Shown here: positions 8,898-28,137 of the stretch, piece after piece
How positions within the stretch are numbered: the stretch's first letter is position 1
Layout: the number at the start of each line of letters is the position of its first letter
Source: a virus
IMG/VR virus record: IMGVR_UViG_3300025759_000278
Span: 1-36,085 of that record
DNA: 36,085 bases
Strand: one strand, 5' to 3'
Translations under genes and position numbers: made by a program
Notes under the pieces: generated by a model
What the model was told of the DNA's origin: nothing
The model's database searches: none
Seen by the model: only the letters and a program-made list of their open reading frames with translations

Positions 8898-10481
8898 TTA
8901 TAATTTTTGCCCTGTCATCCAAGATATTGCTCTTTTAACGGCTCTTTTCTTATCTTGCTTCTTTAATATGTCATCCATATCCTTAGCTTCAAACCTCCTA
9001 CTTATAGGAGCTCTAGAGTGGACTAATGCATACCATATACCATCAAGAAGGTCATCGTTCTTTCCTTTTGGAAACTGGAACATTTCATCTACAAGATCTT
9101 GATGTTTTCTTTTTATATGCATCTTACCTCTGTTTACTATCGGAGCAACTAAGGATTCTAACCTATCTTCTTTTTTAATACCAGATGGTGGTCTAACTCC
9201 TTTAGCTAAACCCGGCATCATCTTTCTTTCACTACCAGATAATTGGTTAACTGCATCTTTAATTATACCTTGAGCTCCAACTAACTCCACGTTAGCTCTT
9301 TTAATAGGGCTATACTCCTTTGCATATTGCAGTATCTCATCAGGCATTTCATACAAAGGTATACGCTCACGAAAATAATCTATAATATAAACATTCTTAT
9401 CGCTATCTACTCCAACTACCATGATTACTTGAAAGTCACTATTCTCATTTGCTTCGTATGCTAAGTCAACACCTATGTAAACATTTACAGGTATAGCATC
9501 TTCTTTATCAACTATGTAAGCAAAATTGCCATTAGAAACAAACTCACCATTATATGTAACAAGCCTATCTACTTTAAACTTAGCATTTGTTAAGTCACGA
9601 GCTTCGTTTAAATATTCTTGTGCAAACTTGTGAGTAAGCCCTACATCTTGGAATCTTCTTCTAATGTCATCTAACTTCTCAACAGAAAAATAAGATGGCC
9701 ACAAAGCAACTCCGTTATCAATAGCTTTATGATATACAACCTCCCAAGCATACTTTCTTTTTACTTTCTGAGCTTCTGTATATCCATCGTAGATGCCTTG
9801 CAAGAAAGAATCAAAGTGTACAATAGTTCCTATAAGCCAAACAGAACCCTCGTTACCTGCAGAGTTTTCAAGAGCAGGTTCAACAGTTGACATTACCCAC
9901 TCTTTAATTTCTCTTCTTCTATCTGGTGTCTTTGTGTTTAACTCTGATTCAAAGTCATCAAGTATAATATTTGTATATCGAAGTCCTAACTGAGAACGAC
10001 CACGAAGTCTTTGACTTGTACCTTTTGCAATTATCCTATCACCCTTACTAGTCGTAAATTCTTTTTCAGTCCACTTACTTCCCTGCAAGTCACCAAAGTA
10101 ATAATTTAATGCAGGATTTATTTCTATATGATTTTGTATATATTTGATATGGTCAATAGCCTGAGACTGTTCCTCAGCTACCCACGCAATAAATTCTTTT
10201 TTACCCTCTGGATTAAAATAAAGCTTATGCATCAATGCAGATTTAGCTAGTGTACTCTTACCATGACCACGAGGTAATATAATACATATTCTTTTATTTT
10301 CTTCTGATAATAATACGTTGCTTAATTCGTATTGATAAGGAGCGGGAGAAGATTTCATAAAATCCTCTGGCATAAAAAGCTGACCAAAGGCTACAATATC
10401 TCTACTAGCTAACTCAAGAACTTTATCTTTTTGTTTTTGGTTCGAAGAGTTTATATTAAAATTTTCTACTGGTTTATCCAA
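8898..10481 (-). CDS. terL: terminase large subunit
   Basis: This 527-residue DNA-packaging motor has an N-terminal ATPase with a Walker A-type GHGKST at residues 72–77 and a Walker B IILDDFE at 172–178. The C-terminal RNase H-like nuclease shows its first Asp in YIGVDLAYE (near residue 335) and a late Asp cluster in GKNDDLLDGIWYAL. Length is normal for the family. The start is TTG at 10481, five bases after GAGG, inside the last 16 bases of the GGCT gene, which indicates translational coupling. It cuts concatemeric DNA and drives it through the portal. The neighbouring portal and small terminase agree with the call. Confidence 0.92.
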   Translation of the reverse strand: MDKPVENFNINSSNQKQKDKVLELASRDIVAFGQLFMPEDFMKSSPAPYQYELSNVLLSEENKRICIILPRGHGKSTLAKSALMHKLYFNPEGKKEFIAWVAEEQSQAIDHIKYIQNHIEINPALNYYFGDLQGSKWTEKEFTTSKGDRIIAKGTSQRLRGRSQLGLRYTNIILDDFESELNTKTPDRRREIKEWVMSTVEPALENSAGNEGSVWLIGTIVHFDSFLQGIYDGYTEAQKVKRKYAWEVVYHKAIDNGVALWPSYFSVEKLDDIRRRFQDVGLTHKFAQEYLNEARDLTNAKFKVDRLVTYNGEFVSNGNFAYIVDKEDAIPVNVYIGVDLAYEANENSDFQVIMVVGVDSDKNVYIIDYFRERIPLYEMPDEILQYAKEYSPIKRANVELVGAQGIIKDAVNQLSGSERKMMPGLAKGVRPPSGIKKEDRLESLVAPIVNRGKMHIKRKHQDLVDEMFQFPKGKNDDLLDGIWYALVHSRAPISRRFEAKDMDDILKKQDKKRAVKRAISWMTGQKL

Positions 10482-10813
10482 TCTTGCCTCGGTACTTCTT
10501 TAAAAACTGATTGGTGCTGCATTAATAAAGGCCCAGCAATATAAACCCAAGCTTTTGTATACGGAGTGTCTCCATCATATACATCTATTTTTTCTCTCGT
10601 ATATAAACCAGTATCAATACTTTCATACTTATCATAAGACATAATATCAGCATTATCAACATCAATGACTTCAACTACTGCTCCCTTGCCTTCTTTATTT
10701 TTTATAATAGCAGGATAATTTTCATGTCCGGGATATACTAGCGATACATCTTTTAGTCTATATGTTGGTCTCTTGCCATTTCTAAGAGTTCCGTAAACTG
10801 CTAACTTTTCCAT
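10466..10813 (-). CDS. gamma-glutamylcyclotransferase-like (GGCT/AIG2) protein
   Basis: This 115-residue protein has the family signature near the N-terminus, LAVYGTLRNG (residues 4–13), which forms the substrate-binding loop. The expected acidic catalytic residue appears in YDKYESIDTGLYTREKIDV near residue 63. Family members release 5-oxoproline from gamma-glutamyl amines or peptides. Domain length is complete for the compact version. It is wedged between the terminase genes, overlaps the large terminase by 16 bases and overlaps the upstream small gene by 32. Together with the amidoligases and glutaminase on the other strand it may belong to an amide-bond pathway; that link is inference, since it sits in the late operon. 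Confidence 0.78.
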   Translation of the reverse strand: MEKLAVYGTLRNGKRPTYRLKDVSLVYPGHENYPAIIKNKEGKGAVVEVIDVDNADIMSYDKYESIDTGLYTREKIDVYDGDTPYTKAWVYIAGPLLMQHQSVFKEVPRQDWINQ

Positions 10814-16311: not shown

Positions 16312-16722
16312 ATGCAAACATTTTTACCATACCCAGATTTCCGAGAGTCGCTAGAATCTCTAGACAATAAGCGTCTAGGTAAACAGAGAGTAGAGGCTTT
16401 GCAACTAATAAAGTCTATATATCTAGAAGACTACGGATGGAGAAATCACCCTTGCTCTAAGATGTGGAGAGACTATCCACAAGCATTGATAGAGTATATG
16501 AATATATCTATTGATGTATGGAAATCGAGAGGGTTTAATAATACTATGGTCAAACAGAGAGTAGAAGATATAGTCTACCCTCATTGGCTTGGCGATACAA
16601 AGTTTCATGACTCGCATAAAGCGAATCTACTATCTAAGGACTACGACTTCTATAGTAGATATAACTGGAACGTAGACAAAAACATGCCGTACTACTGGAA
16701 TGGCTACGGCAAGGAAGAGTAG
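16312..16722 (+). CDS. pyrimidine-dimer glycosylase-like (MSMEG_6728-type) protein
   Basis: This 136-residue protein opens MQTFLPYPDFRESLESLDNK, then RLGKQRVEALQL, and continues GWRNHPCSKMWRDYPQALIE. Later segments read WLGDTKFHDSHKANLLSKD and YYSRYNW-like FYSRYNWNV. This order of motifs is that of the MSMEG_6728/pyrimidine-dimer DNA glycosylase family (Pfam PF03013 type), related to T4 endonuclease V. Thr at residue 3 follows the initiator region, where T4 EndoV uses its N-terminal Thr as nucleophile. Length is complete. A UV-damage repair role would suit a surface-ocean phage; activity itself is inferred. Confidence 0.75.
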   Translation: MQTFLPYPDFRESLESLDNKRLGKQRVEALQLIKSIYLEDYGWRNHPCSKMWRDYPQALIEYMNISIDVWKSRGFNNTMVKQRVEDIVYPHWLGDTKFHDSHKANLLSKDYDFYSRYNWNVDKNMPYYWNGYGKEE

Positions 16723-16920: not shown

Positions 16921-17060
16921 GTGAATTATATCATACATTAATACATCTATTAGGTTTATGTGGAGAGCCACATCCTAGTCTATTTACAATTATAGCGGCT
17001 ATGATTGCTCTACCATTTAAATCTGTAGTATTATATATCATAGAGAAGTTAAATATATGA
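16917..17060 (+). CDS. 47-residue membrane micro-protein
   Basis: This frame is linked by ATGA overlaps on both sides. It encodes MSELYHTLIHLLGLCGEPHP and a hydrophobic segment SLFTIIAAMIALPFKSVVLY before EKLNI, so it is probably a single-pass membrane protein. The LGLCGExHPS motif is one I associate with short proteins in other marine phages, from memory. No function is known. Confidence 0.6.
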   Translation: MSELYHTLIHLLGLCGEPHPSLFTIIAAMIALPFKSVVLYIIEKLNI

Positions 17061-18433
17061 ATACGTATTTATGTGGAGAGTGTGATGATGTCTACGATGA
17101 GACATTTCTAGCATATTCTCAGATATTAGACCGACAGATATGCCATAATTGCTGTAGCACTAAATGTAGAGACTGCGATTTTTGTGGAGAAACAATATAT
17201 TACGAGAATTTTACTCTACGTATACCATTGACAGATGAAGAGATAGTAAAAGTTAAAGAGATGTTTGCTAAATATGATTGTGAATATATATGTAGGGCCT
17301 GTATACATAGCACATATCGTAGATGTGATGATTGTCCTAGTGTTGATTTTATAGATTTAAATCTATCTGACGATGAGATATATCTAAGAGACGAATGGTA
17401 TCAAGATGAGAGATGGAATAGAATTAGAAATAGAATACTTGAGCCTCGTAAAGCGTATTTGCTAGAGAAGTACAATGTCTATGGTAGTTGCCACTATTGC
17501 AATGATTGTTACGACAATGTAGTAGAATCTACGGCTATCAATCCTACTAGGTCGTTACGTAGAGAAGATTTTAAACCTAGTATAAATGATAGAAATAATA
17601 TTAAGAGACATGTAGGTATAGAGACAGAGATGCTTTACGATGAGTTAAAAGATATGGATGTAAGCGAATTAGATAGCTATGATATAGAGCATTATATAGA
17701 TACTCCAAACTATTGGGATGGAGTCTACGATGGCTCTCTCAGTAATGGTGGTGTAGAGCTTAGAACTCGTAGACCTGTAGTTGGAGACGATATATCTGTA
17801 GCTATAGATAGTTTACGTAGTAATATAAATTCGTATATGCCCGAAGTAGATAATTCATGTGGTGTACATATACATTTCAATGCTCTAGATTTTGGTTATG
17901 TAGAACTAAAGAATTTACTATATGTTATGAAAGGTATAGAGCATGTAATATATAAATCATTGCCAAATAATAGAATAGCTAATAGATATTGTAAATCTAT
18001 AGACTCTTTAAATTATAGTGATTTAGAAAAAGTAGATAATATGAGTTCTCTACATAAGCTATATTATAATAAAATAGCTGATACGATACCCGATAACCAC
18101 CACTACAATGGTGCTAGATATCAAGGCCTAAATCTACATGCTAGGTTTTTTCTAGGAACTATAGAATTTAGATATCATGAGGGTACTACGAATGTAGATA
18201 ATATAATGTCATGGATAAATCTATGTAATTGGATAGTAGACGCATCTAAGATGATGTCTATGGAGAAAAAATTATCTCGAGAACAGAGAAAGTGGAGAGA
18301 TAAGTTAAGAGATACATTTATATATAGTAAATGTATAAAAACGACACCTATAGAGCGTATAGCTTTGATAGGTGGTAGAGATTCAGCTGACTATATAAGT
18401 GAGAGGATATCTAAAAATAGTAAAATACAATAA
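17057..18433 (+). CDS. amidoligase 1 with N-terminal zinc ribbons
   Basis: This encodes 458 residues. Residues 1–155 hold several CxxC knuckles (C6/C9, C29/C32, C37/C40, C79/C82, C90/C93, C145/C148), so two or three zinc ribbons. From residue 185 comes a GS-fold COOH-NH2 ligase (Amidoligase_2, PF12224 type): VGIETE 186–191, YDGSL 224–228, GGVELRT 231–237, CGVHIHF 268–274, and near residue 370 LNLHARFFLGTIEFRYHEGT. These residues bind ATP, metal and acid substrate in the family. It would join a carboxylate to an amine, making an amide or peptide bond; the substrate is unknown. A paralogue lies two genes downstream, with a glutaminase between, all in one operon. Confidence 0.85.
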   Translation: MNTYLCGECDDVYDETFLAYSQILDRQICHNCCSTKCRDCDFCGETIYYENFTLRIPLTDEEIVKVKEMFAKYDCEYICRACIHSTYRRCDDCPSVDFIDLNLSDDEIYLRDEWYQDERWNRIRNRILEPRKAYLLEKYNVYGSCHYCNDCYDNVVESTAINPTRSLRREDFKPSINDRNNIKRHVGIETEMLYDELKDMDVSELDSYDIEHYIDTPNYWDGVYDGSLSNGGVELRTRRPVVGDDISVAIDSLRSNINSYMPEVDNSCGVHIHFNALDFGYVELKNLLYVMKGIEHVIYKSLPNNRIANRYCKSIDSLNYSDLEKVDNMSSLHKLYYNKIADTIPDNHHYNGARYQGLNLHARFFLGTIEFRYHEGTTNVDNIMSWINLCNWIVDASKMMSMEKKLSREQRKWRDKLRDTFIYSKCIKTTPIERIALIGGRDSADYISERISKNSKIQ

Positions 18434-18451
18434 CAAAATAGGAGAGAGAAT

Positions 18452-19531
18452 ATGTGTGGAATATTCGGTTTTGCGAAACAGAGTGGTCATCAGACAGACG
18501 CTCAGATAGATAAGCTAAGAGATGTATTTACAAATCTCGCTAGCGATTCTGTTGTGAGAGGTGAAGATAGTACTGGTGTCTCTATTATATCGCCCGATGA
18601 GAGAAGAACATTCAAGTCTATTGTAGCTTCAGACAAGATAGTCAAGCACGAGACATGGCGTTCTAACATCTTAGATAGGATTGATAGAGAATCAACTATA
18701 GGTATAGGCCATGTTAGACTAGCTACTCATGGAGATGTTACTATGCGTAATGCACATCCATTTGAGATAGGTAGTGTTCTAGGGGCACACAATGGAGTGA
18801 TACATAACTATAACGAGCTTGCTAAGAAATACAACAAATCTATTGAAGTAGATTCTGAGGTAATCTTTGCATATCTAAATAATATGTCAGATAGAGATGC
18901 TCTAGAGAAGTTAGAAGGAGACTATGCTCTATCTTGGGTAAAAGATAGTAATAGGATAGTACATCTAGCTAGAGAATCTAGTAGACCTATATCTGTAGCT
19001 TATTGGAAGAAGGCTCGTATATTATTATGGGCATCTACTAGTCATATATTAGAGAATGCTATGCACGATGCAGGCCTTACTCTTAAACACCATAGTCTAT
19101 TAGTAAATAATATATACTCATTTAATACTGATAACTTTGGTAGTAAGACTGCAGTAGAGAAGTCTACATTCAAGCCTAAGGAGAGTGCTCGTAGTTTATA
19201 CTCCAACTCTAGTTGGAAGTATGCTACGACATACTATGGAGGATACTACGACAATACTAACGATAGTTGTGTAATAGACGATAGTCCTGCTAAATATACT
19301 TGCGAGACTTGTAGAAATTCTGATTATGATTATAATATGATAGATGTAGGAGATAACGTATCTATATGCTACGAGTGTTACGAGGATGTAGAGGCTTGCG
19401 AATGGTGTGGAGATTATGTATTCGGTGCAGAGTTAGTTGAGAGAGGTTTATATAAGGTATGCTCTCTATGTACTAATGATGTTAGTAATACTCTATATCT
19501 ACCCGAAGCAAATGGTATAGTATCAGCTTAA
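18452..19531 (+). CDS. class II glutamine amidotransferase with C-terminal zinc ribbons
   Basis: This 359-residue protein has the N-terminal nucleophile Cys2 after Met removal (MCGIFGF), the glutamine-binding HVRLATHG at 87–94, the oxyanion AHNG at 112–115, and GDYAL at 156–160, all typical of GATase_2/Ntn hydrolases. There is no synthase domain as in GlmS, PurF or AsnB. Instead the C-terminus has four CxxC pairs (C284/C287, C306/C309, C316/C319, C337/C340), i.e. two zinc ribbons similar to those in the flanking amidoligases. It should release ammonia from glutamine or move a glutamyl group. A GGAGAGAG ribosome site precedes it. Placement between the amidoligases suggests that it feeds them. 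Confidence 0.85.
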   Translation: MCGIFGFAKQSGHQTDAQIDKLRDVFTNLASDSVVRGEDSTGVSIISPDERRTFKSIVASDKIVKHETWRSNILDRIDRESTIGIGHVRLATHGDVTMRNAHPFEIGSVLGAHNGVIHNYNELAKKYNKSIEVDSEVIFAYLNNMSDRDALEKLEGDYALSWVKDSNRIVHLARESSRPISVAYWKKARILLWASTSHILENAMHDAGLTLKHHSLLVNNIYSFNTDNFGSKTAVEKSTFKPKESARSLYSNSSWKYATTYYGGYYDNTNDSCVIDDSPAKYTCETCRNSDYDYNMIDVGDNVSICYECYEDVEACEWCGDYVFGAELVERGLYKVCSLCTNDVSNTLYLPEANGIVSA

Positions 19532-19543
19532 ATAGGAGAGAGT

Positions 19544-19837
19544 ATGAAAGATAAGAAAGTTATCTTACTAGGATTTCCTAATCCTATTAAGATGAGAAAC
19601 AAAGAGTATGTCTTAGAAAAGCTATACGAGAAAGCAAAGTCTAATCCATTTATACATGGTAAGACATTCAAAGAGTATAGAGAGTTTCTTTGTGTCCAGA
19701 TCAAAGACTTTGGAGACATTGAAGTTGATTCTAGAGATACTGATAAAATATATGATTCATTAAAATCTATGGGTTGGATAAAAGTAATAAACGCTGTCGT
19801 GCTTGCTATTATCTCTAGCCATACTGCTATCTCATAG
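19544..19837 (+). CDS. 97-residue protein of the amidoligase operon, unknown
   Basis: ATG 19544 follows GGAGAGAG. The 97 residues begin with a beta strand and a basic turn (MKDKKVILLGFPNPIKMRNK), then helices (EYVLEKLYEKAKSNPFIHGK) and end in a hydrophobic stretch (VINAVVLAIISSHTAIS) that could be membrane-associated. No family is recognised. It lies between the glutaminase and amidoligase 2 with 12- and 9-base gaps, so it is probably part of the same pathway, perhaps as carrier, substrate or scaffold. That role is inferred from context only. Confidence 0.55.
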   Translation: MKDKKVILLGFPNPIKMRNKEYVLEKLYEKAKSNPFIHGKTFKEYREFLCVQIKDFGDIEVDSRDTDKIYDSLKSMGWIKVINAVVLAIISSHTAIS

Positions 19838-19846
19838 GAGGATGTG

Positions 19847-21163
19847 ATGCCTCCAGATACCAATAGAGAAAATAACTCTACTCAATCTGAAGAGAATAGC
19901 CAAGACGTATACGTATGCGATGGCTGTGAAGAAGAAAGAGATAGAGGAGATGATGGCGAGAATCTTACTAGACATGGTGAATGTATATGTGATGAATGTA
20001 GAGATGAAAATTACTATAGCTGCAATGATTGTTGTGAGCTAGAACATATACACGACTCATATCTAGGGCCTGATGATTGCTACTACTGCGAAAATTGTAG
20101 AGACAATTCATTTTCGTATTGTGAGAGTTGCGATGTAGCAGAGTGGCACGATGAAATGAGATATGTAGAAAGTACATCTATGTATCTATGTGATAGTTGT
20201 TACGAAGAAGAATGTTGCGACCCTCATAATCATATAGAGAATGCACCATCATCTGTGAGTGTTACTCATCATAGAACTGAAGATACATCTAAATTAGATG
20301 TAAAGAGACTAGTGGGTATAGAATCAGAAGTTACTATGTATAATCCCGAGACAGATGGTGATGGATATGCTCTCGCATATTATAGAGATAATATACCTAA
20401 GTCTTGGAGAGAAGTACATGATGGTAGTATAGAAGGAGAGTATGGTAGAGAGTTAATTTCGTCTCCAGCTAATGGCAATATACTAGATGCAAGAATACGA
20501 GAACTTACTCAATGGGCACATACATATCGTGCTAGACCTAATCACTCTTGTGGGTTACATATACATATAGATGCTACAGATACAGATTGGAATGATTTAA
20601 GATGGATAGCTCTAGTTATGAAAAAGCTAGAATATAATATATTCGATATGCTACCACCAAGTAGACGAGGCAGTAATTGGTGTAAGAAGGTAGAGATGAG
20701 TTTCGAAGACCTACGAGATTGTACTGACGGAGAACGTTTTGTAGAAATGTACTACGATGGATATGGTATAAGTAATGAGAAATATAACGATAGTAGATAC
20801 CATGGATTAAATCTACATTCTAGATACTACTTAGGCACTATAGAGTTTCGATATCACTCTGGTACGACTAACTATGAGAAGATATATAATTGGATTAGAC
20901 TATGTAACTCTGTTGTAGAGACTGGTATATATATAGCTAGATGTAAAGACTCTAATGATGAGAAGTATAAGAAGCTAGTTCAATTCTATACAGAACATAC
21001 TGACTACAATATGGAAAAGTCTACATGGAATCAGATCTTAGACAATATGATTGGTGTAGATGATAAACTTCGTAGATATATATTTACTCGTATACAAAAG
21101 TTTACACCAGAGAGCCCAGACTTGAGAGAAACAAGAACTAAAAACATACTAAAGGAGGTATAA
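19847..21163 (+). CDS. amidoligase 2 with N-terminal zinc ribbons
   Basis: ATG 19847, five bases after AGGAGG, gives 438 residues (GTG one codon earlier is less likely). Six CxxC pairs occupy residues 24–118 (24/27, 48/51, 59/62, 81/84, 92/95, 115/118). The GS-fold amidoligase follows: VGIESE 156–161, HDGSI 191–195, GRELIS 200–205, CGLHIHI 235–241, then YHGLNLHSRYYLGTIEFRYH near residue 320 and a C-terminal helical tail. It is a diverged paralogue of the gene two places upstream, with changes in the catalytic loops (YDGSL to HDGSI, VELRT to RELIS). That suggests a different substrate or a heteromeric enzyme. The stop overlaps the next ATG. Confidence 0.85.
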   Translation: MPPDTNRENNSTQSEENSQDVYVCDGCEEERDRGDDGENLTRHGECICDECRDENYYSCNDCCELEHIHDSYLGPDDCYYCENCRDNSFSYCESCDVAEWHDEMRYVESTSMYLCDSCYEEECCDPHNHIENAPSSVSVTHHRTEDTSKLDVKRLVGIESEVTMYNPETDGDGYALAYYRDNIPKSWREVHDGSIEGEYGRELISSPANGNILDARIRELTQWAHTYRARPNHSCGLHIHIDATDTDWNDLRWIALVMKKLEYNIFDMLPPSRRGSNWCKKVEMSFEDLRDCTDGERFVEMYYDGYGISNEKYNDSRYHGLNLHSRYYLGTIEFRYHSGTTNYEKIYNWIRLCNSVVETGIYIARCKDSNDEKYKKLVQFYTEHTDYNMEKSTWNQILDNMIGVDDKLRRYIFTRIQKFTPESPDLRETRTKNILKEV

Positions 21164-21553: not shown

Positions 21554-21593
21554 TGTATATTTGTAAATTAACTACCCAAATTTGGAGGAATAT

Positions 21594-22469
21594 ATGCCAT
21601 TAAAAGGTTTTAAATATCCCGATGGTGAGATAGTTTCTCTAGAAGATGTGAGAGATAGAAATGTAGATGTAGAGAGAATGGGTATGGCTATACCTACTCT
21701 CTTATATATGTCTAATCAGAGAGATGCTAATCGACCTCCATCTACTACAGAACTACTCATAGGAACTTGCCAAGCGTATCTACAGAGAACAGAAGACTAC
21801 TATACAGACCCTCAAGGTAATGCGTTCTCTCTAGCAGGTACTATACATCATAATAAGTTAGAGGATTCTGCAGAAGATGAGGAGACTATGCTAGCTGAGA
21901 TACCATTAGAGTATGAGGGAATCACAGGTATCGTAGACTTGTATGATTCAGAGAATAGTATGCTGATAGACTACAAGAATACTGGCTCTTACAAAGCATC
22001 TCAAATACTAGGTATACAATCTAGAACAGAGAGCGACCCCGTAGAAGTATATAAAAAGAGTGGTAGATGGGGCACGAAAGGCTCGCCTAAAAAAGTAAAA
22101 GTATTTTATAGAGACCCTGCTACTGCGGATTTTGGAGATTGGTCGTGGCAAGTAAATTTCTATAGACTTATGCTAGAGAAAAATGGATACCCAGTAAATG
22201 AAATGTATATACAAATGACAATACGAGACGGTGGAGTTCATGCGGCTAAGAGTAGAGGTATATACAACAATATATATCTAGTACCAGTTCCATATATAGA
22301 TAATGAGGTACTAGAAGATAGATTTCTAGAGAAAAGAGATATGTTATTATCTGCTTTAGAAAACAAAACAAAACCAGAGATGTGTACACCAGAGGAAACT
22401 TGGAATGGTAGAAAGTGTGAAAGCTTTTGTCCTGTTCGAGAGGTGTGTCCACATCTAGAGAGAAAATAA
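21594..22469 (+). CDS. Cas4/RecB-like PD-(D/E)XK nuclease with Fe-S cysteines
   Basis: ATG 21594 follows GGAGGAA and gives 291 residues. A His-containing helix AGTIHHNKLED (81–91), the catalytic Asp in TGIVDLYD (Asp115) and IDYKNTG (Asp126-Tyr-Lys128) form the PD-(D/E)XK nuclease core of the PDDEXK_1 group. The C-terminus carries four Cys (about residues 264, 275, 279 and 285; CESFCPVREVC) and would hold a 4Fe-4S cluster as in Cas4/AddB. It probably resects DNA ends for the annealing protein two genes downstream. A long insertion between the catalytic parts (about 130–190) is unassigned. Confidence 0.78.
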   Translation: MPLKGFKYPDGEIVSLEDVRDRNVDVERMGMAIPTLLYMSNQRDANRPPSTTELLIGTCQAYLQRTEDYYTDPQGNAFSLAGTIHHNKLEDSAEDEETMLAEIPLEYEGITGIVDLYDSENSMLIDYKNTGSYKASQILGIQSRTESDPVEVYKKSGRWGTKGSPKKVKVFYRDPATADFGDWSWQVNFYRLMLEKNGYPVNEMYIQMTIRDGGVHAAKSRGIYNNIYLVPVPYIDNEVLEDRFLEKRDMLLSALENKTKPEMCTPEETWNGRKCESFCPVREVCPHLERK

Positions 22470-25902: not shown

Positions 25903-27220
25903 GCTAGAAGATACTCTACTTGGTTGCGTAATGCAAGACTCATCTAAGTTAACCTTAGTAAAGTCGTGGATTCCCGAAGATGATTTCTTCTACTCTGATT
26001 TAAATAAGCGTATATGGAAAACTATTCTTAAGTTAGAAGACAGAGGATACGAGATTGATGTAAATACCGTTTGCAATTCTATAGAGAAAACTAAGTTTGA
26101 TAATAACTTAACATATACTATATTAGGGTATATGGATTTAGTTGTATCTACAGAAAGAACATCTGATTATTGCAAACTATTACACGCTGAATACTTAAGA
26201 AGAAAACTTCAAACTCAAGTGTATGGCATACAAAAGAATATAGGAGATAATTCTTTAGAGACACAAGTATTACTTGAAGATGCGCATACTACTATAGGTA
26301 ACATTATTAGGTTACAACCTAACTCTAGCTTTAGTATAGAAGATGTATTGAAAGATACTACTAAGTCTATATTTGAAAAAGAGAATCTTATAAACACAGG
26401 TATAAATATACTTGATAGTGTTATCTCTGGTATGACAAGAGGAGAGATAAGTATTATAGCTGGTAGACCCGGAAATGCTAAGACAACCGTAGCTGCGAAC
26501 ATAGCGAGAAATCTAATCAATCAAGGTAAGAAAGTAGTTATGTTCAATAGAGAAATGCCCAATGTAGAGATGATGAAAAAGTTTATGGCTATGGAGTCTC
26601 AAAGTATTTCATACAGAAATCTAAGACATAATATAGACATATCTGATTCAGATATATCTAGTGTATCAGATATAATAAAAGAAAAGTACACAGATAAGTT
26701 GTTTATGTTTGATGAAATAAGAGACTTAGATGGTTCTTTTAGAGAGATAAAAGCTATCAATCCCGATGTAGTTATAGATGACCATATAGGTTTGATAGAG
26801 TACCCAGTAAATGATAATAGAGATTTGAGAATAAAGATAGGAGACACTACTAGAAAGTATAAGTGGTTAGCAAAAGCAGAGAAGATGTCTGTAATACTTG
26901 TATCTCAAATGAATAGAAACATGGAACATAGAAACGATAGAGTACCTAGGCTATCTGACTTAGCTGAGTCTGGTAACTTAGAACAAGATGCAGAGATGGT
27001 TATGTTTACTCACTATCCTTGGGTATCTAGATACGGAGATGATGGTAATAGTGAATGTTACTTAGAACTTATAGTAGCTAAGAATAGATATGGAAATACT
27101 AACTTGTGTAAGGTTGGTTATGATGGAAATACTTGTACGATACACGAGACAGAAGAATCAGCTATGAGTTCTATGCAAAGTAGAGGAGAGAAGATAAAGA
27201 AAATGGAGTTATTCGATTAA
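25889..27220 (+). CDS. replicative DNA helicase, DnaB family
   Basis: This encodes 443 residues. The N-terminal domain (about 1–110) is the helical DnaB-N type, opening MIEPRLEDTLLGCVMQDSSK. A linker leads to the RecA-like motor: TGINILDSVISGMTRGEISI, Walker A GRPGNAKTT (192–200), FNREMPNVEMMKKFMA (motif H1a-like), the Walker B region NPDVVIDDHIGLIEY, and SQMNRNMEHRNDRVPRLSDL with AESGNLEQDAEMVMF, which is the typical H4 and arginine-finger section. It unwinds DNA as a hexamer at the phage fork. No primase or polymerase is recognised beside it. Its stop overlaps the methyltransferase ATG. Confidence 0.9.
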   Translation: MIEPRLEDTLLGCVMQDSSKLTLVKSWIPEDDFFYSDLNKRIWKTILKLEDRGYEIDVNTVCNSIEKTKFDNNLTYTILGYMDLVVSTERTSDYCKLLHAEYLRRKLQTQVYGIQKNIGDNSLETQVLLEDAHTTIGNIIRLQPNSSFSIEDVLKDTTKSIFEKENLINTGINILDSVISGMTRGEISIIAGRPGNAKTTVAANIARNLINQGKKVVMFNREMPNVEMMKKFMAMESQSISYRNLRHNIDISDSDISSVSDIIKEKYTDKLFMFDEIRDLDGSFREIKAINPDVVIDDHIGLIEYPVNDNRDLRIKIGDTTRKYKWLAKAEKMSVILVSQMNRNMEHRNDRVPRLSDLAESGNLEQDAEMVMFTHYPWVSRYGDDGNSECYLELIVAKNRYGNTNLCKVGYDGNTCTIHETEESAMSSMQSRGEKIKKMELFD

Positions 27221-28137
27221 TGAAAATGCTAGATTTGTTTAGTGGTATAGGTGGGTTCGCTCTTGCCGCTAAGTGGACTTGGAAAGAAGATCTGGAGATA
27301 GCAGGCTTCTGCGAGATAGAGGAGTTTTGTTGCAAAGTTCTAGAGAAAAACTTTCCTAGAGTTCCTATATACAAAGATATAACAGAACTAGATGGTAATT
27401 TATTTAACGATATAGACTTGATAACTGGAGGTTTCCCTTGTCAAGATATATCACAAGCAGGGAGAGGAGAAGGAATTGAAAAAGGAACAAGGTCTGGTCT
27501 TTGGTTCGAAATGCTTAGAGTTATTAGCGAAGTACGACCAAAGTTCGTCATCATTGAAAATGTCCCAATGCTCACTATTCGAGGAGGAACAAGAGTTATT
27601 GAAGGTCTTGCCGAAATCGGGTATGATGCAGAGTGGACTGTTGTGGGAGCAAACGAAGTTGGAGCTAGACACATTAGAAAAAGACTTTGGATTGTGGCCT
27701 ACACCAACAGCATCGGACAATCAAGGAGCACCTCAGAAGAATGTAGAACTGAGGAACGGCTCGTTCTCGAGAGTGAACAAGAAAGGACAGAGGTGGGGAG
27801 TGAAACTAAAGGACGCAGTACACTTCATAGAGAAGAGAGTAAACTTTCCGACACCAACAAAGTCAGACGTTTACATAGCGACATTGAAGAGCAATCAAAC
27901 GAAGAAGACATCGAAGCACTCAGTAAGTCTAGGGAAAGCAGTTACGACACACAAAGACTTATATCCGATACCCACTCGAAACCAGAAAACGGAGCCGACT
28001 ACTGGGCGTTTGAACCCTCTATGGGTAGAGTGGCTGATGGGATTCCCGATTGGGTGGACAGAATTAAAGGACTCGGAAACGCAATAGTTCCACAAGTTGC
28101 GAGAGTCGTAATGGAGAGGATAAAACCTCTAATCTAG
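27220..28137 (+). CDS. cytosine-5 DNA methyltransferase
   Basis: This encodes 305 residues. Motif I is LDLFSGIGGFALA (4–16), motif II FCEIEEFC, motif IV GGFPCQDIS with catalytic Cys74, motif VI ENV (113–115), motif VIII RHIRKR (150–155), and motif X GLGNAIVPQVA near residue 287. All catalytic motifs are present, so it should transfer methyl from S-adenosylmethionine to C5 of cytosine. The stretch between motif VIII and the C-terminal motifs (about 165–262) is a low-complexity Ser/Glu/Arg/Thr linker with little predicted fold; this part is also coded in the +1 frame by another gene. It would protect phage DNA from host restriction. It is the last gene of the early arm and meets the minus-strand virion gene with a nine-base overlap. 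Confidence 0.9.
   Translation: MKMLDLFSGIGGFALAAKWTWKEDLEIAGFCEIEEFCCKVLEKNFPRVPIYKDITELDGNLFNDIDLITGGFPCQDISQAGRGEGIEKGTRSGLWFEMLRVISEVRPKFVIIENVPMLTIRGGTRVIEGLAEIGYDAEWTVVGANEVGARHIRKRLWIVAYTNSIGQSRSTSEECRTEERLVLESEQERTEVGSETKGRSTLHREESKLSDTNKVRRLHSDIEEQSNEEDIEALSKSRESSYDTQRLISDTHSKPENGADYWAFEPSMGRVADGIPDWVDRIKGLGNAIVPQVARVVMERIKPLI
27476..28087 (+). CDS. methyltransferase-associated protein encoded in the +1 frame inside the MTase gene
   Basis: TTG 27476, about six bases after GGAG, opens 203 codons lying entirely within the methyltransferase gene. The product has motifs that I know from separately encoded proteins next to phage cytosine methyltransferases: SLKMSQCSLFEE (26–37), LPKSGMMQSGLLW (45–57), LWPTPTASD (73–81), FPTPTKSD near 115, and a C-terminal LNPLWVEWLMGFPIGWTEL. 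Function is unknown to me. The DNA coding LWPTPTAS also codes the methyltransferase LWIVAYTN, and the DNA for IGWTELKD codes DWVDRIKG, so both frames seem conserved. This is unlike a chance shadow frame, which would not recover a known motif series in order. Confidence 0.7.
   Translation: MKKEQGLVFGSKCLELLAKYDQSSSSLKMSQCSLFEEEQELLKVLPKSGMMQSGLLWEQTKLELDTLEKDFGLWPTPTASDNQGAPQKNVELRNGSFSRVNKKGQRWGVKLKDAVHFIEKRVNFPTPTKSDVYIATLKSNQTKKTSKHSVSLGKAVTTHKDLYPIPTRNQKTEPTTGRLNPLWVEWLMGFPIGWTELKDSETQ

Follow-up and report, generated by a model that had tools for sequence, protein, structure and literature searches.

A glutaminase-amidoligase cassette with a new small partner protein and a probable cyclotransferase eraser in a lineage of tailed phages

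Gene content of the locus

The virus record IMGVR_UViG_3300025759_000278, an IMG/VR record of 36,085 bases and 35.4% GC that is referred to here in its full length as the window, carries the genes of a tailed phage, including those for an SU10-like major capsid protein, a P22-like portal, a terminase, a DnaB-like helicase and a C5-methylase. The subject of this analysis is a cassette of four genes, AL1, GAT, P97 and AL2, encoding two amidoligases, a glutaminase and a small protein whose gene is placed between GAT and AL2. All four genes are located on the plus strand at positions 17057-21163, with intergenic gaps of 18, 12 and 6 nucleotides.

17057-18433, plus strand: AL1, 458 residues, ligase of the glutamine synthetase (GS) fold, Amidoligase_2 (PF12224), with N-terminal CxxC ribbons; optional cassette member
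18452-19531, plus strand: GAT, 359 residues, stand-alone class II glutaminase (N-terminal nucleophile type, Cys2; PF13522) with a C-terminal CxxC ribbon
19544-19837, plus strand: P97, 97 residues, apparently a new family, with a helical core flanked by conserved segments at both termini; may act as carrier, substrate or scaffold
19844-21163, plus strand: AL2, 439 residues, GTG start, GS-fold Amidoligase_2 (PF12224) carrying three CxxC/CxxC units at its N-terminus; core ligase

A preliminary description of this DNA had placed two amidoligases and a glutaminase, each with CxxC pairs, in a single operon, and this was correct in every testable point, namely the open reading frames (ORFs), the Pfam assignments and the positions of the CxxC motifs. 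The same arrangement was found in dozens of independent contigs, and the cassette is neither a product of chance nor an artefact.

Integrity of the enzymes

AL1 and AL2 matched Amidoligase_2 with E-values of 1.1e-24 (88 bits) and 1.6e-26 (94.1 bits), respectively, against a cut-off of 22 bits, and share 32% identity with each other across query residues 46-369. Residue conservation was evaluated in alignments of 34 relatives, to which 14 single-ligase relatives were added for AL2 and GAT. The GS-type residues, tested at 15 positions per ligase, were invariant in 34 of 34 relatives for AL1 and 48 of 48 for AL2, with none of the losses of ligase catalytic residues that the preliminary description had proposed looking for. 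GAT matched GATase_6 (PF13522; E 6.2e-19, 68.8 bits) and has the N-terminal catalytic cysteine and the glutaminase motifs of class II glutamine amidotransferases. Its alignment was checked at 14 positions, none of which varied; amongst them, Cys2, Arg89, Asn114-Gly115 and Asp134, as well as ribbon cysteines 284, 287, 306 and 309, were identical in 48 of 48 relatives. Judged by these residues, AL1, AL2 and GAT are intact enzymes.

The AlphaFold2 model of AL2 (predicted local distance difference test, pLDDT, 80.3; predicted template modelling score 0.66) was closest to YbdK and its relatives, with a Foldseek E-value of 3.4e-6 and Z-scores of 13.1-13.2 over 244-251 residues at a root-mean-square deviation (rmsd) of 5.2-5.5; the values for YbdK itself (1r8g) were Z 13.1, 251 residues and rmsd 5.5. 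After YbdK, the matches amongst solved structures were glutamate-cysteine ligase, glutamine synthetases and Dop (Z 10.5, 233 residues, rmsd 6.2). On the question of whether AL1 arose from AL2 by duplication within the lineage, the ligase tree required two changes for AL1 and three for AL2 and contained several long branches. AL1 is about 600 residues long in most of the relatives compared (L005-L056), where it has an extra N-terminal region that is missing in the window and in L004 (457 residues).

Constancy of the cassette

Loci, annotated through searches with sequences and with profiles, comprised 56 relatives anchored on GAT, 61 on P97 and 78 on AL2, the last obtained with a profile, as the single-protein search of IMG/VR with AL2 returned one near-copy only. 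The tallies count loci with room for the gene in question; the P97- and AL2-anchored sets overlap in contigs and are not independent, and two loci from the AL2 search with an AL1-type ligase alone at the contig end (L191 and L194) were excluded. Loci anchored on P97 held GAT in 59/59, AL2 in 61/61 and AL1 in 55/58 cases, and those anchored on AL2 held P97 and GAT in 70/70 each and AL1 in 54/68, being without it in 14. No P97 was detected in two relatives from the GAT search with 31-33% identity (L057 and L058). A further sample, anchored on the terminase large subunit (TerL; 25 records of 80 loci), contained GAT in 13/25 and P97 in 14/25 records; in the 11 records without a match, less than 5.7 kb follow TerL in the direction of the cassette, and the cassette was found in 14/14 of those reaching the site. 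The cassette is core in the lineage as sampled, a group of uncultured phages, with GAT-P97-AL2 as the invariant core and AL1 as an option.

These tallies bear on two expectations of the preliminary description. Its genes are not carried independently in relatives, where they co-occur, and the idea that P97 is a dedicated partner of the cassette was strengthened by its presence at every AL2 locus with room and that of AL2 at every P97 locus. A second ligase is not essential, given the AL1-free loci and 13 records with one ligase per cassette, one of which (G006) has two such cassettes. Distances measured for the cassette genes correlate about equally well amongst themselves and with those measured for flanking genes, and vertical inheritance therefore explains the constancy within the lineage. 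Duplicates occur in two long records, G006 (80 kb) and G039 (64 kb): besides two cassettes, or two copies of GAT, each has a pair of genes for GGACT (the cyclotransferase described below), and these records are possibly chimeric or joined contigs.

The small protein P97

The P97 family comprises 42 distinct members including that of the window, to which the others are 29-86% identical, and has nine invariant residues. Searches with P97 of Pfam, PHROG, NCBIfam and the PDB gave no convincing family; Pfam matches such as Clenterotox (E 0.0097) and DUF5312 (E 8.4e-5, in 8 of 42 members) were attributed to chance, no family matching most members. No relative was found in isolate phages, searched with the P97 of locus L013, or amongst 64 pattern matches in bacterial genomes, and the best Foldseek match of the P97 model, the acyl carrier AcpM, was not significant (E 1.3). 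None of the four cassette proteins matched in PADLOC at an E-value of 0.1. We regard P97 as a new family without detectable relatives outside the lineage.

The AlphaFold2 model of P97 is confident only in the helical middle (residues about 18-81), and the conserved segments 1-17 and 82-97 have a pLDDT below 50. The C-terminal end is aligned to within one or two residues across both cassette types, with endings such as TTNIGV, TANYGIA and SHTAIS, a last residue of V, S, A, T or G, and a conserved Asn in the tail, in whose place some relatives have His, Tyr, Asp or Gln. Conserved ends of this kind would fit a protein whose termini fold against a partner or whose tail is modified. The tail is hydrophobic over its last 16 residues (mean Kyte-Doolittle 0.97-2.02); as for a membrane tail-anchor, only 4 of 42 members reach 1.6 in a 19-residue window. 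Endings such as NYAIA or NYGIA occur in L039, L049, L155 and others, and are reminiscent of ssrA-like degron tails.

Zinc ribbons

CxxC motifs occupy residues 6-151 of AL1, 284-340 of GAT and 25-119 of AL2. The preliminary description had proposed a ribbon common to all three proteins that could dock them into a complex. With a profile of the AL2 ribbons, scores exceeded the 95% limit set by cysteine-fixed shuffles in 15/34 cases for AL1 and in only 3/34 for the GAT C-terminus, so that for GAT no kinship beyond cysteine spacing was detected and a shared docking module was not supported. Amongst four isolate-phage glutaminases, those of tf, Alcaligenes QDWS535 and T5S1 have C-terminal CxxC pairs and that of Ottawa has none. 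The partner ligases of the first three lack CxxC motifs, and a glutaminase ribbon therefore needs no ribbon on the ligase. The ribbon of GAT is best seen as a recurrent family trait, which does not count as evidence for a ribbon-ribbon dock.

LIM domains are double zinc fingers of the pattern CxxC...C/HxxC-xx-CxxC...CxxC. Over its ribbons, the AL2 profile matched the LIM chains of PINCH and CRP1 at E 2e-5, which we regard as a lead and to which cysteine-rich composition may contribute, and the linker between zinc pairs is longer in AL2 than in LIM. No description of ribbon-bearing phage amidoligases was found in the portions of the open-licence literature covered. The Manatee Spring phage record MW202637.1 (L294) encodes a 684-residue amidoligase with five CxxC motifs and has no GGACT gene.

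A gamma-glutamyl cyclotransferase beside the terminase

A component absent from the list in the preliminary description is encoded outside the cassette:

10466-10813, minus strand: gamma-glutamyl cyclotransferase (GGCT; GGACT, AIG2/BtrG-like; PF06094), beside TerL; proposed eraser

The window protein matched PF06094 at E 4.6e-12, and GGACT was found in 19/19 lineage records tested. It lies directly upstream of TerL, the two ends being at most 26 nucleotides apart in 13/13 records with comparable coordinates, and thus in the head/packaging operon, which we infer to be late. The motifs YGTLR and D-x-Y-E, the Glu of the latter presumably being catalytic, were kept in 21/21 sequences; a loss of this Glu, suspected from a MAFFT alignment, was rejected as D-x-Y-E is present in all of them. 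Amongst isolates with an amidoligase, GGACT was present in 5/5 of a first set and 2/5 of a further one (7/10), compared to 0/9 control phages without Amidoligase_2 (Fisher p 0.003). It is adjacent to the amidoligase gene in Geobacillus GR1, immediately 5' of it in Arthrobacter Ottawa, separated from it by one small gene in NatCom_20922 and by three in Bacillus 031MP004, and part of a larger module in tf and Vibrio 1.293.O.

Enzymes of the GGACT type cleave gamma-glutamyl amides, and the ligases therefore most likely make gamma-glutamyl bonds. The presence of GGACT points to gamma-glutamyl chemistry that would be made and then unmade.

Genomic surroundings

The cassette is housed in the replication-gene half of the genome, with helicase, Rad52-like and nuclease genes. 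Amongst its neighbours and the other genes considered are:

16312-16722: pyrimidine-dimer glycosylase (Pyr_excise, E 7.4e-23), upstream of the cassette
21582-22469, plus strand: PD-(D/E)XK nuclease (PF12705, E 6.1e-06), conserved downstream neighbour, probably outside the pathway
27220-28137: C5-cytosine methylase

Distances of the PD-(D/E)XK nuclease correlate with the cassette like those of other neighbours. An ORF resembling the pyrimidine-dimer glycosylase of the window lies directly 5' of GAT in several single-ligase records (e.g., L129, L131, L155 and L160). The C5-methylase had no match in the ORFs of record G035 and a weak one in G014.

Relation to known systems

In 2009, Iyer et al. 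reportedly predicted a phage 'peptidoglycan modification module'. Systems of this kind (LUZ24, tf, phiEco32, RIO-1/PSA-HP1) resemble the present lineage in combining Amidoligase_2, a class II glutaminase and a gamma-glutamyl cyclotransferase and in placing the module in the early/replication half of the genome, and the glutaminases of tf, QDWS535 and T5S1 share the C-terminal CxxC pairs of GAT. The lineage differs by its second Amidoligase_2, the tandem ribbons of its ligases, P97, and the location of the cyclotransferase beside the terminase. Additionally, the type-2 COOH-NH2 ligase PF14395 was found in 0/19 lineage records (positive control, 3/4 isolates), as was the RimK-type ATP-grasp PF08443, for which the positive control was detected in 3/4 isolates with E-values up to 2.2e-4 that fall short of the curated cut-off, and an ATP-grasp of another subfamily is possible. 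Due to the lack of both matches, the lineage is filed as a variant of the module and not as a member.

Other systems share single aspects of the cassette. In Arthrobacter phage Ottawa (gp64-66), GGACT, amidoligase and glutaminase are adjacent, with a single ligase, no P97 and no CxxC in either enzyme. The Pup ligase and deamidase, PafA and Dop, likewise pair an enzyme of the GS fold with a small protein. Pup ends in Gly-Gly-Glu or Gly-Gly-Gln, an ending not present in P97, whose last residue is neither Glu nor Gln, and the cassette adds a glutaminase and a cyclotransferase. In butirosin synthesis, a small-molecule pathway on an acyl carrier protein, BtrJ adds a gamma-glutamyl group that the cyclotransferase BtrG removes, a similar logic with a BtrJ that is an ATP-grasp enzyme, unlike AL1 and AL2.

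The association of amidoligase and glutaminase, which the preliminary description had attributed to comparative genomics, is already published for phages: the passages covered here report both genes in marine OM43 phages (PMC10580990) and a LUZ24-like phage (PMC3890496). For the chronic Phage-ZRK32, amidoligase, glutamine amidotransferase, glutathione synthase and gamma-glutamylcyclotransferase are reported together with raised host growth on nitrate/ammonium, and a role in nitrogen metabolism is proposed (PMC10945688). The functions given in these passages are predictions, and no demonstrated chemistry or target of phage amidoligase modules was found in the portions of the open-licence literature covered.

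Proposed function and alternatives

We consider it rather likely that this is an early-operon cassette making amide bonds, most likely of gamma-glutamyl type, as a variant of the peptidoglycan modification module. Glutamine would be hydrolysed at the N-terminal cysteine of GAT to give ammonia or a glutamyl group, as its family and invariant residues suggest. AL2, in most relatives together with AL1, would activate a carboxylate with ATP in the manner of glutamine synthetase and join it to an amine, in line with the fold and its invariant residues. P97, given its strict co-occurrence and conserved ends, may be an obligatory protein partner of GAT and AL2, acting as scaffold, carrier or substrate. 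The cyclotransferase of the head/packaging operon would cleave the gamma-glutamyl amide as 5-oxoproline, a late removal or limiting step suggested by its family, motifs and position. The chemistry is probably gamma-glutamyl, and the host cell wall is the predicted target favoured in the literature covered. The scheme is built on observed gene content, order, conservation and co-occurrence; activity, step order, timing and target are predicted. The interpretation in the preliminary description stands as to intact enzymes, one operon and strict co-occurrence, but is not supported as to the shared ribbon, and the second ligase is not essential.

Several observations weigh against this proposal. 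When the distances track those of neighbouring genes, co-occurrence within the lineage is a weak argument for a functional unit, and the GGACT gene, located outside the cassette, may be shared through lineage inheritance. Selection of the control phages was not random. Profile searches did not detect the type-2 ligase or the ATP-grasp, both of which are defining parts of the LUZ24-type module. Moreover, the literature covered gives no known activity of a phage member, and the published cell-wall role is a prediction.

The constant presence of P97 at AL2 loci, its conserved C-terminal end, its terminal segments, whose poor modelling in isolation would fit folding against a partner, and the occurrence of the GS-fold Dop amongst the structural matches of AL2 could also be explained by protein tagging or capping, in which P97 is a substrate whose C-terminus is modified or joined to a target by a GS-fold ligase, as PafA does with Pup, and the cyclotransferase acts as eraser. 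However, Dop is one of many GS-fold matches with similar Z-scores, and the absence of a C-terminal Glu or Gln, together with the replacements of the tail Asn, leaves the classic chemistry of a gamma-carboxylate tail unsupported; we consider tagging unlikely. A more elaborate version, in which P97 is a small modifier or carrier whose C-terminal tail is recognised by the ligase, a glutaminase-ligase complex amidates or conjugates it early in infection, and the terminase-coupled cyclotransferase breaks this bond late, would be a timed writer/eraser unlike known systems, and is improbable enough to be called speculative.

An auxiliary role in nitrogen metabolism, with host glutamine/glutamate or glutathione-type metabolism boosted by the enzymes in the way suggested for Phage-ZRK32, draws on the gene set and raised host growth reported for that phage, although the passages covered do not trace the effect to single-gene tests (PMC10945688). 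Bulk metabolism would leave the dedicated P97 partner and the ribbons unexplained, and the families of the window show no metabolic pathway context, so this role seems quite unlikely. The location of the cassette near helicase, Rad52-like and nuclease genes and just downstream of a pyrimidine-dimer glycosylase gene could suggest DNA hypermodification, with the ligases amidating or aminoacylating a base. This is very improbable: a thymidylate-synthase homologue, as encoded by phages with thymidine hypermodification pathways, was found in 0/19 records, while the control search was positive in 9/14 genomes, and the C5-methylase is without a match amongst the ORFs of G035.

Significance

Amidoligase modules are common in phages, with 103 GenBank phage records matching AL2 and 341 matching GAT. 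The lineage described here reduces the module to a core of GAT-P97-AL2 plus the cyclotransferase and adds a new, obligatory partner protein. Altogether, this is a real and conserved amide-bond cassette with intact residues that belongs to a known kind but is newly arranged: its partner family is new, and its probable eraser is encoded next to the terminase. The arrangement leads to a precise prediction on the chemistry, namely a gamma-glutamyl amide from which the cyclotransferase would release 5-oxoproline, and this is testable with four purified proteins.

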